Positions 19,007 to 23,600 of a stretch of 64,000 nucleotides of DNA are shown one piece after another (within the stretch, counting starts at the first letter, position 1; the number at the start of each line of letters is the position of its first letter). The stretch comes from Gemmatimonadaceae bacterium. GTDB taxonomy: Bacteria; Gemmatimonadota; Gemmatimonadetes; Gemmatimonadales; Gemmatimonadaceae. The position numbers and the translations under genes are program-made. The DNA is taken from NCBI GenBank assembly GCA_022843265.1, contig JALHNZ010000005.1, forward strand, positions 1 to 64,000, given 5' to 3'. The notes beneath the pieces are model-generated. The model ran no database searches. It was given only the letters and a program-made list of their open reading frames with translations, and was not told the DNA's origin.

Positions 19007-21778
19007 ATGACACATCCCAACTCGTTCGGCAGCCGCGCCTCACTCTCAGTGGGTTCGCGGTCGTACTCGTACTACCGTCTCGGCGCGCTCGAAACGCTCG
19101 ACGGCAATCGCGTCGCCTCCCTTCCCTTCTCGCTCAAGATTCTGCTTGAGAATCTGCTGCGTGGTGAAGACGGCGCCTTCGTGCATCGCAGCGACATTGA
19201 AAGTCTGGCACGCTGGGATGTTACGCGTCCCGTTGACAAGGAAATCGCGTTCCGCACGGCTCGCGTCCTGCTGCAAGACTTTACGGGCGTGCCGTGCGTG
19301 GTGGACCTCGCGGCCATGCGTGATGCGATTGTCAAGCTTGGCGGTGATCCCACGCGCATCAATCCGCTGCAGCCGGTGGATCTGGTCATCGATCACTCCG
19401 TGCAGGTAGACGAATATGGCACCGAGGCTGCGGCGCTCCTGAACGTAGAAAAAGAGTTCGAGCGCAACACCGAGCGCTACGAGTTTCTGAAGTGGGGACA
19501 GCAGGCGCTGAACAACTTCCGCGTCGTGCCGCCGGGCACGGGAATTTGCCATCAGGTGAATCTCGAGTATCTGGCGCACGTCGTCTTCACGATGGCGCAG
19601 GACGGTGAGACCCTCGCGTACTGCGATTCACTCGTCGGCACCGACTCGCACACGACCATGATCAATGGTCTCGGTGTGCTCGGCTGGGGTGTCGGTGGCA
19701 TTGAAGCCGAAGCCGCGATGCTTGGGCAGCCGGTGTCGATGCTGGTGCCGGAAGTGGTGGGGTTCCGTTTGCACGGCAAGCTGCCTGCGGGCGCGACCGC
19801 GACAGATCTCGTGCTCACGTGCGTCGAGATGCTGCGCAAGAAAAAAGTCGTGGGCAAGTTTGTTGAGTTCTACGGACCCGGCATCTCGTCGTTGTCGCTC
19901 GCGGATCGTGCCACGATTGCGAACATGGCACCGGAGTATGGGGCCACGATGGGCTTCTTCCCGGTTGACGCGGAAACGCTCAAGTATCTCCGTCTCACCG
20001 GCCGCAGCGAAGAACAGGTTGAGCTGGTGGAAGCGTACTGCAAGGCGCAGGGACTGTTCCGCACCGATGATCAACCGGATCCGGAGTTTACGGACACGCT
20101 CGCGCTTGATCTCAGCACCGTTGAGCCGAGCCTTGCGGGACCCAAGCGTCCGCAGGATCGTGTGCCGCTCTCGGCATCCAAGAAGATGTTTCGCGAAGCA
20201 TTGGCGCAGCAGTTGGCGTCGCAGCTCACGCCCGCTGTGGCGGCGGCGAAACCGGCACCCGGTAGTGCCGAAGCGAGCATGGTTGCAGAAGGTGCACCGG
20301 TCGACACCGTTGATTCCGGCGTTGCGTGTTCGTATCGCGACGAACAGTTCACGATGAATCACGGCCATGTGGTGATTGCCGCAATCACGTCGTGCACGAA
20401 CACGTCGAACCCGAGCGTGATGCTGGCCGCGGGACTGCTTGCGCAGAAGGCCGTGGCGCAGGGATTGCGCAGCAAGCCGTGGGTGAAGACGTCGCTCGCG
20501 CCAGGCTCCAAGGTGGTGACCGAATATTTCAACAAAGCCGGCGTCACACCAGCGCTAGATGCACTCGGCTTCAACACCGTGGGCTACGGCTGCACCACCT
20601 GCATTGGCAACTCGGGTCCGCTGCCGGAGCCGATTACCGATGCGATTGAGGCGGGCAAACTCAACGTGGCCGCGGTGCTTTCGGGCAACCGTAACTTTGA
20701 AGGCCGTGTGAATCCGCTTACGCGCTTCAATTATCTGGCATCACCGCCACTGGTTGTTGCGTACGCACTCGCGGGTCGCATGGACATTGACTTTGCCACC
20801 GAGCCGCTCGGTGTTGGTGCCAACGGTCCGGTGTTCTTGCGCGATGTGTGGCCAAGCGCGCAGGAGGTACAGGATACGATTCTGACCAGTGTGAAGCGCG
20901 AGCAGTTCACGGAGCAGTACGCCAATGTGTTTGACGGAGACGCACTGTGGCAGCAGATCAATGCGCCGAGCAGCGATCGGTACACGTGGAGCGAATCTTC
21001 CACGTACGTACAGCATCCGCCGTACTTTGAAGGCATGACGATGACGCCACCCGGTGTACAGCCAATCGCTGGCGCGCGCGTGATTGGCATGTACGGCGAC
21101 TCGATTACCACCGATCACATCTCGCCCGCAGGTGCCATCGCTGGAGCGTCGCCCGCGGGTAAGTGGTTGCAGTCGCAGGGTGTGGAGCGCGCCGATTTTA
21201 ACTCATACGGTTCGCGTCGCGGTAATCATGAAGTGATGATGCGTGGCACGCTCGCGAACATCCGGCTTAAGAATGAGCTCGCGCCGGGCAAGGAAGGCTG
21301 GTGGACGGCGACGACGCCTGGCGGTGACGCCGTGGCGCTGTACGACGCGGCCATGGAGTGGCAGGCGGCGGGCACACCGCTCATGATCATTGCAGGCAAA
21401 GAGTACGGCACCGGTTCGTCGCGCGACTGGGCGGCCAAAGGTGTGGCGCTGCTCGGCGTGCGCGCGGTGATTGCCGAGTCGTTCGAGCGTATTCACCGTT
21501 CGAATCTGGTGGGCATGGGTGTGCTGCCGCTTGAGTTTACCGATGGGCAGACGCGGCAGACCTTGGGATTGACCGGCTTTGAGTCGTTCACGATTGCGGG
21601 ACTTGATGCGTCACTCACGCATCGCGCCACGTTAACGGTGCACGCAACGCGTGGTGATGGATCGGTGGCCACGTTCAACGTGCGCTGCCGCATTGATACG
21701 CCCGAGGAACTGCAGTACTACGCACACGGTGGCATTCTGCACTACGTGCTGCGTCAGTTGGCTTCACACAAGGTGTGA
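19007..21778 (+). CDS. acnA: Aconitate hydratase A
   Basis: A 923-residue monomeric aconitase of the AcnA/IRP family, interconverting citrate and isocitrate in the TCA cycle through a [4Fe-4S] cluster. Cluster cysteines lie in [11 protein letters not shown] and [12 protein letters not shown]. The substrate-site segments [21 protein letters not shown] and the swivel domain ([13 protein letters not shown]) are intact. The ATG at 19007 matches the family N-terminus ([13 protein letters not shown]). Its stop is overlapped by the start of the lipid-kinase gene. The 180 bases before it show no clear promoter. Confidence 0.97.
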
Positions 21779-22707
21779 CACTGAGCGCACCGGTTCGACT
21801 GCTGGTGAATCCGGCGGCGGGGCGCGGTCGCGCGCTCCGCCGTCTGGAAACGGCCCAACATGCGCTCGCGCGTGTTGGGCCGTTTGATGTGGTGACCACG
21901 CGGAGCGCGGGTGATGAATCGCGGCTTGCGCGCGACGCAGTGGCTGATGGGGTGAGCACGCTTGTTGTGCTCGGCGGTGATGGTACGATTTCGCGCGTTG
22001 CGGCAGCACTGGTCGAGAGCGGTGGTGATACGGCGCTGGCGATTCTCGGTGCGGGTACTGGAAACGATCTGGCGAAGTCGCTGGGCGCGCCGGTGTTTGA
22101 TTATGCGGCGATGGCCGAACGGATTGCCATGCGTGAGGTGCGGCGCATTGATGTGGGCGAAATTGACGGTCGCGTGTTCGTAAACGCGGCGGGCGTTGGG
22201 TTTGATGTGGCGGTGCTGGAGCGCACGCTGAACGCGCGATGGCTACGCGGTGATGTGTTGTACGCCGTGACCGCGCTTGGGCAGTTGTTCAGCTATCGCG
22301 GATTCGCGGCGGAGGTGGACGTGGCCGCCGCCGAGAAATCGGACACACTCGTCGCCGCTGCAGACACCGGAGGGGGGCACGCCACGCGTTGGCTCACGGT
22401 TGTGATTGCGAATGGGCAATGGTTCGGTGGCACGTTTCGCATTGCGCCAGACGCGTCGCTGAGTGACGGGGCGCTGGATCTGGTGGCGATCTCGGATGCA
22501 TCACCGCTGCGACGCGCGCAGTTGTTTGGCGGCGCGCCGTTTGGTCGACATGTGCTGGCGGCGGAGGTGCGGTATGCGCAGCAGCAGCGCGTGACGCTAC
22601 GGTTTGCGGAGCCGCCGTTGTATCAGGCGGATGGGGAGTTGTACAAAGCGAGCGGCGCGGTGCTTGATGTGCGGGTACGGCCGTTGGCGCTCAGTGTGAT
22701 TGCCTAG
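21775..22707 (+). CDS. Diacylglycerol/lipid kinase family protein (DagK/YegS-like)
   Basis: A 310-residue protein of the DAGK catalytic family, ATP-dependent lipid kinases related to DgkB, YegS and BmrU. It has the N-terminal [12 protein letters not shown], the nucleotide-binding [27 protein letters not shown], and the C-terminal beta-sandwich ending [13 protein letters not shown]. Its GTG start overlaps the aconitase stop as GTGA. The acnA-kinase pairing has no obvious metabolic logic. The exact lipid substrate is not readable from sequence. Confidence 0.9.
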
Positions 22708-22775
22708 GGCGCTTGGCCGCTGGGCGTTGGATCGGCGTTGGTGCTCGTCGCAAAGTTGGCCTTCGGTGCATGTGA

Positions 22776-22912
22776 AGGGCACCGGAAGACGCGAAGAGCG
22801 CGAAAAACGCGAAGCAGTGCACGTGGCTACAACCCACCTCGTTGAACACGCCGCTCCTCTCAAATTCTTGAGCGGTCGCGTCTTTCGCGCTCTTCGCGTC
22901 TTCCGGTGCCCT
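22776..22912. repeat. Long inverted repeat (37-base arms, 63-base loop)
   Basis: The left arm 22776-22812 and right arm 22876-22912 are reverse complements with one mismatch in 37 bases. The arms begin with AGGGCACCGGAAGACG and continue as 9-base CGCGAA repeats. If transcribed they would form a very stable hairpin; the loop contains a smaller stem (CTCAA/TTGAG near 22859-22872). It may be a miniature repeat element or act as a terminator between the kinase and the convergent NUDIX gene. Confidence 0.85.
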
Positions 22913-23054
22913 CCACCTGCGCCAACGACAACGCTCGCAGGCGGCGCGCGTCACATCGGAAACGGTCGTGTGGTCGATGAAGCGAAGGTGCTCCGCGTGC
23001 CGTGGGAACTGCGGCGGGAAGGACACGAAAGCACGAAGAACACGAAGGAGGGCA

Positions 23055-23110
23055 ACTGCGCCGGCAGCGCCGAGCACGCAAACCAGCGCCATTTGGCGCA
23101 CTTGTTTGGT
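23055..23110 (-). pseudogene. Decayed partial copy of the NUDIX gene 3' end
   Basis: On the minus strand this stretch reads NKCAKWRWFACSALPAQL, closely matching HKCAEWRWFAWSELPEPL near the C-terminus of the intact NUDIX protein encoded at 23136-23549. At DNA level a run of 17 bases (CACGCAAACCAGCGCCA) is identical in the two copies (about 23077 and 23203) and the similarity continues beyond it. The copy then runs straight into the 9-base CACGAA repeat block where the real gene continues to its stop. It is a truncated tandem duplicate. Confidence 0.7.
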
Positions 23111-23135
23111 GCTTGGCTCAACAGCGCACGAACGT

Positions 23136-23549
23136 TCATGGCACGAATCCTGTGGCCCGCAACGTCGCGAGCGGTTGAAAGAGCGGCTCCGGAAGCTCTG
23201 ACCACGCAAACCAGCGCCACTCGGCGCACTTGTGTGGTTCGAGAACCTGCGGCGTTCCTTCAGCGTCACGCATGATGGTAAAGAGCGTGACGTAGTGCAG
23301 CGATTCTGCCGAGAACACCGTGTTCACGTACGGCCCGAGCGCGACCGTGTTGGCCACCAGACCAGCTTCTTCACGCAGTTCGCGCGCGGCGCATTGCTCG
23401 ATTGATTCGCCAAACTCGAGATGTCCGCCAGGAGGCGCCCAGCTATCGGCACCGTGCGCGCCGAGGCGGCGGCCGAGCAGGATGCGCGCGTCACGCACCA
23501 CGAGGGCACCAACACCGACGCGCGGCAGGAGTACAGTCATAACGCTCAT
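23136..23549 (-). CDS. NUDIX hydrolase, NUDT15/MTH2-like
   Basis: A 137-residue (or 134 from ATG 23540) NUDIX pyrophosphohydrolase. The NUDIX box is intact: GGHLEFGESIEQCAARELREEAGL fits GX5EX7REUXEEXGU. The flanks (RVGVGALVVRDARILLGRR, HYVTLFTIM, EPHKCAEWRWFAWSELPEPLFQPLATL) resemble the NUDT15 group, which hydrolyses nucleoside triphosphates including oxidised or modified ones. ATG 23549 or ATG 23540 are both plausible starts. A decayed duplicate of its 3' end lies immediately downstream in its own transcription direction. Confidence 0.9.
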   Translation of the reverse strand: MSVMTVLLPRVGVGALVVRDARILLGRRLGAHGADSWAPPGGHLEFGESIEQCAARELREEAGLVANTVALGPYVNTVFSAESLHYVTLFTIMRDAEGTPQVLEPHKCAEWRWFAWSELPEPLFQPLATLRATGFVP

Positions 23550-23600
23550 GATACGACTTCGATCGCGCACTCTCAATCACGGTTGCGTACTACCTGATTC

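Follow-up and report, generated by a model that had tools for sequence, protein, structure and literature searches.

Introduction

Of the described systems that come closest to the locus considered here, REPs are placed between unidirectional and convergent genes (PMC3733652), and the rRNA intervening sequence of Coxiella encodes a protein of the PF05635 family (the S23p ORF), has a 28-bp terminal stem and carries tandem heptamers ahead of the ORF (PMC4990558). The locus lies in a window, that is, the whole stretch of DNA analysed, of 64,000 nt, which was taken from contig C5 of a Gemmatimonadaceae genome assembly (4.63 Mb in 211 contigs, 95% complete; hereafter the study genome, G000). By their build, its repeat elements resemble the hairpins of REPs, BIMEs and MITEs.

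The locus and its repeat elements

Two intact genes converge on a spacer that holds repeats of two families, here called A and B, and a copied piece of one of the two genes. The features are given below in window coordinates.

21775–22707, + strand: intact left neighbour, a diacylglycerol-kinase-like gene of the YegS type (PF00781, E 1.1e-28; PF19279, E 3.5e-26)
22708–23135: spacer of 428 nt separating the two convergent stop codons
22733–23047: composite of A within B, collinear with L002 on contig C90 (local alignment score 231)
22765–22812, + strand: left arm of the family A inverted repeat, 92% complementary to 22876–22923
22876–22923, − strand: right arm of the family A inverted repeat, 48 nt
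22986–23057, + strand: family B element with ACGAAG units, of which one half is present and the left half was not seen
23058–23110, − strand: copied internal NUDIX piece of 18 codons, with 45 of 53 bases equal to 23186–23238
23069–23117: hairpin that the copy forms together with the sequence after it (folding matched by 4 of 2000 shuffles of 23111–23135)
23136–23576, − strand: intact NUDIX gene (PF00293, E 4.4e-23)
23186–23238, − strand: source segment within the NUDIX gene

The family A pair is a strong hairpin (22770–22918, z −11.35). On contig C90 a family A pair is nested within a family B pair and, since the window is collinear with that contig over 22733–23047, the window element represents this composite, with no left B arm to be seen. 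The arms of A and B elements measure about 50–85 nt and carry periodic units of 8–9 nt, which are similar in style and differ in type, GCGAAG in A and ACGAAG in B. The family B unit follows the pattern GGGAACTGCGGGCGGGAAGGACACGAAAGCACGAAGGACACGAAG, then AGAGCAAC, with CACGAA units at about 23023–23047 of the window, and ends at about 23056–23057 when set against other genomic copies, so that the copied fragment, starting at 23058, abuts it within about 2 nt. A preliminary description of this DNA had the fragment passing directly into a repeat related to the inverted-repeat arms; the direct junction is confirmed, but the repeat belongs to family B and the arms to family A, and the two share a style only.

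The copied NUDIX fragment

A repeat search of the window returned the fragment and its source as a pair of 85% identity, 128 nt apart and in the same orientation. The best ungapped score of 22931–23135 against the NUDIX gene was 37, above the maximum of 16 reached in 200 dinucleotide shuffles of 22931–23135, which rules out chance similarity. A simple assembly artefact was also rejected, as 8 of 53 sites distinguish the two copies.

On the minus strand the ORF of the fragment reads NKCAKWRWFACSALPAQL, corresponding to HKCAEWRWFAWSELPEPL in the NUDIX gene. Missing from the copy are the final 14 codons of the gene and its stop codon; hence, what had been taken for a copy of the gene end is a genuine copy, but of an internal piece near the 3′ end. 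Both sides of the fragment are cut, with no continuation into gene sequence at either edge. Since 4 of its 8 mismatches to the source fall at third codon positions and 6 of its 18 residues are changed, the fragment looks unconstrained.

Comparison within the genus

Five genomes of the genus were searched, the study genome included, and the kinase gene was found in four of them. G059 has the same kinase neighbour and keeps the order aconitase–kinase–NUDIX (90%, 68%, and 67% amino acid identity, respectively), and the window NUDIX gene has a normal terminus (GFVP-stop), with an identical ending in G059. The two stop codons of G059 lie 9 nt apart, with neither the repeat nor the copy, as against 428 nt in the window. 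Within the fetched kinase flank, neither G024 nor G050 showed a NUDIX gene, and G060 (64% complete) gave no kinase match. The window copies agree with each other at 45 of 53 sites and with G059 at only 34 and 36 of 53; being closer mutually than to G059, they were probably copied after the split.

The absence of repeats and copy from G059 fits an insertion in the window lineage, at an approximate empty site, G059 being too diverged for a base-exact one and the element ends being inexact. We infer insertion here; loss in G059 would leave the same difference. The preliminary description had stated that a relative free of both repeats and duplicate would refute it; G059 is such a relative, but its state is compatible with a later insertion too.

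Our preferred reading, to which we assign a probability of about 0.6, is that a REP/MITE-like composite was inserted in this lineage and that a local template switch or templated repair then copied a piece of the NUDIX gene. A family A pair inside a family B element would have arrived in the very short gap between the convergent genes. The 53 nt of the NUDIX gene, 128 nt off, would have been copied in the same orientation at the right edge of the composite, through a template switch during local replication or templated repair of a break, probably promoted by the hairpins, while the left B arm may have been lost or never copied. The fragment would have been left as a neutral scar, as it represents only part of the gene, differs at 6 of 18 residues and stands beside a NUDIX gene that is intact. 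This order of events, and the template switching, of which a single product is seen, are what we infer from the present arrangement.

An alternative, near to what had been proposed before, is that the NUDIX gene was once fully duplicated in tandem, that the second copy received the repeat by insertion or recombination, and that it lost everything except 18 codons. The same orientation and the short distance are as expected of a tandem copy. Nevertheless, only those 18 codons are present, the two unexplained spacer pieces (22708–22757 and 23111–23135) show no NUDIX similarity beyond that of shuffles (146 and 154 of 200, respectively, reach an equal score), and G059 has a single NUDIX copy with 9 nt between the stops, so we consider this course possible but unlikely. 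Of the earlier proposal, insertion agrees with G059, whereas a complete second gene is not supported, given the spacer and the single copy of the relative.

The hairpin of the copy

The hairpin at 23069–23117, tested only after having been seen, has a z of −3.20, and the source segment, itself a quasi-palindrome, has a z of −3.50; in the control at the source segment, 480 of 2000 shuffles fold as well. That the bases after the copy complete the hairpin better than 1996 of 2000 shuffles is in keeping with template switching or templated repair where hairpins form. Against this reading stands the source segment, whose folding is about as unusual as that of the copy. Two changes in the copy, at the positions matching 23220 and 23222, make its central palindrome larger.

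It could be argued that the copy has been retained as a 3′-end hairpin of the convergent pair, either as a terminator or as an mRNA stabiliser, given that the bases following the copy complete a hairpin (z −3.20) and that the changes matching 23220 and 23222 widen its palindrome. However, a single terminator-like site is present, on the + strand, against 0.9 expected by chance, the source segment folds equally unusually well, and the adjacent A pair is a far stronger hairpin; we therefore regard such retention as very unlikely.

Families A and B across the genome and its relatives

Family A DNA has at least 20 matches in the study genome, the window counted, and the query 22925–23138 has at least 32, of which at least 28 are to the B unit and the others to itself, to the NUDIX gene and, weakly and by chance, to two further places. 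Inverted pairs are frequent among the other A and B copies. Judged by the longest ORFs on either side, and not by annotated genes, 14 of 22 element loci lie between convergent ORFs, 8 between codirectional and none between divergent ones. These are 22 of 29 loci (L018, L053, L054, L060, L061, and L080, which are near contig ends, and L073 were left out).

Each of the 29 element loci, which contain overlapping ones (L003/L060, L055/L056, and L015/L016), was compared with itself, and only at the window locus did the element border on a gene fragment (1/29). The self-matches at L003, L060, and L072 are not abutting copies of gene ends, and L056 has a 28-nt direct repeat common to the flanks of two adjacent elements on C37. 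Among the 40 candidates scored, the sole full match of the fragment in the study genome is the adjacent NUDIX gene, and its two other, weak matches (C7 and C94) fall in unrelated coding regions, for which reason import of the fragment from elsewhere was rejected. That the element gained the fragment elsewhere and carried it here, or regularly carries gene pieces, is highly improbable on the same matches and on the single occurrence among 29 loci, even though the fragment abuts the element end.

The preliminary description saw in the junction a record of how the element spreads or destroys genes. This is not borne out: the NUDIX gene is intact and none of the other 28 element loci has a gene fragment at its edge, so that the copy is most likely a neutral scar and not a route of repeat spread or gene destruction. 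A general gene-destroying mechanism by the element is not supported, and nothing here suggests that A or B elements usually truncate genes. As a single locus, the case is of minor weight, being one neutral duplicate beside a repeat.

Beyond the study genome, the family B pair was matched in at least 2 of 179 genomes of the bacterial family, the study genome being one of the two, by an insensitive search that scored four candidates in each genome. Of the four other genomes of the genus, one had a match to the window element DNA. In two relatives, inverted pairs have GCGAAG-like units but differ otherwise in sequence (L048, G060:C238:5236-5455; L082, G003:C21:313531-313602), a sign of rapid turnover of such elements. 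In the literature that we searched we recognised no description of these repeat families, which is no proof of their absence from print.

The study genome, at 95% completeness, has no match to PF01797 (RAYT, Y1 transposase), for which 5 of 14 control genomes were positive, and none to PF13366 (GxxExxY). We noticed no A or B element in it that carries a gene. On contig C8, the two arms of one family A pair are separated by 1.6 kb (G000:C8:14900-16700, L093), and the right part of this locus resembles by eye the end of an IS256-type transposase, suggesting an insertion into an A element. At L021 (C4, near a contig end), an extra short-period inverted repeat of the CACGGAGG type adjoins a B element.

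PF05635 cassettes and family D

Four-helix-bundle genes are known to accompany short-period repeats. The one PF05635 match in the study genome, L092 on contig C11 (G000:C11:19481-20389), has inverted pairs of a further repeat family, D, on both sides (roughly 230–250 nt). Family D, with GGCCGAAT-type units, has at least 63 matches in the study genome, which merge by eye into at least 27 further places (including L124–L151). An ORF of the Uma2 nuclease family (PF05685) separates two neighbouring D places on C68 (E 1.3e-27), and another does so on C7 (E 3.5e-19):

G000:C68:4919-6106: two neighbouring D pairs with a Uma2-type ORF between them
G000:C7:91511-93290: two neighbouring D pairs with a Uma2-type ORF between them

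PF05635 matches occur in at least 95 of 118 genomes of the bacterial family. Inverted flanking repeats, with a local score of at least 20 as the threshold, were found at 62 of 70 PF05635 loci (27/30 and 35/40), a proportion that does not come from a random sample, since the loci (L094–L123 and L152–L191) comprise 30 among the best-scoring matches and 40 hand-picked among the matches listed. Among the controls, inverted flanks were seen in 3 of 52 off-centre windows, in 1 of 40 mismatched pairs and at 1 of 9 loci of NUDIX or kinase genes. A clear arm period of 7 or 8 nt is present at 31 of the 62 loci (18/27 and 13/35) and in none of 200 shuffles. The array unit varies between PF05635 loci; in G005 there are four different heptamers at four of five loci. 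AACTGCA was considered as a motif common to such elements and rejected as too weak (7 near 30 PF05635 genes, with 2.3 expected by shuffling and 3 in far flanks).

No PF05635 gene was found at A or B elements, and the gene of the study genome sits on C11 beside D; therefore, the link to the window element is one of resemblance only. Conceivably, A, B, and D could be gene-less kin of cassettes that hold a PF05635 gene (or, at two D places, a Uma2-type gene) between inverted short-period arrays; a mobility route tied to these proteins, itself a free-standing cousin of the rRNA intervening sequence, would copy the hairpins and occasionally, as at the window locus, a piece of a neighbouring gene. 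We consider this quite unlikely. The flanking pattern of PF05635 genes deserves a study of its own and could show the role of these genes and how gene-less hairpins spread.

Comparison with known systems

Like REPs and BIMEs, the elements are short hairpins dispersed through the genome, some paired in inverted orientation and others alone, that lie where genes converge or run in one direction, but their arms of about 50–85 nt with 8–9-nt units stand against the 20–40 bp of REPs (PMC3733652). Of the marks by which REPs and REPINs (the latter: PMC3116915) are recognised, the placement of palindromic repeats in intergenic positions at gene 3′ ends is found here (14, 8, and 0 of 22 loci), whereas the arms are longer than the 20–40 bp that goes with a GTAG or CGTC tag at one end. 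The study genome is without a RAYT-type transposase match, and for want of this Y1 transposase we have not filed the elements as REPs proper.

MITEs share with the elements a non-coding nature, long inverted arms, nested insertions and an empty site in a relative (PMC3733652), and the 48-nt arms, 92% complementary, are long terminal inverted repeats without coding sequence; unlike with MITEs, neither a partner transposase nor a target-site duplication was recognised here. The PF05635 cassettes resemble the Coxiella intervening sequence in having a PF05635-family ORF between inverted ends, with tandem heptamers before the ORF (PMC4990558). They differ in having come from a search for the gene, not for rRNA, and half of those with flanking repeats have clear inverted arrays of 7–8 nt.

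The copy itself may be likened to quasipalindrome template switching, in which changes complete an imperfect hairpin and switching has been proposed near inverted repeats (PMC7202029, PMC8794818); here there is in addition a 53-nt direct copy over 128 nt, and the product is seen once only. In essence, the locus brings together in little space a hairpin composite, the convergent genes on either side of it and a templated scar.
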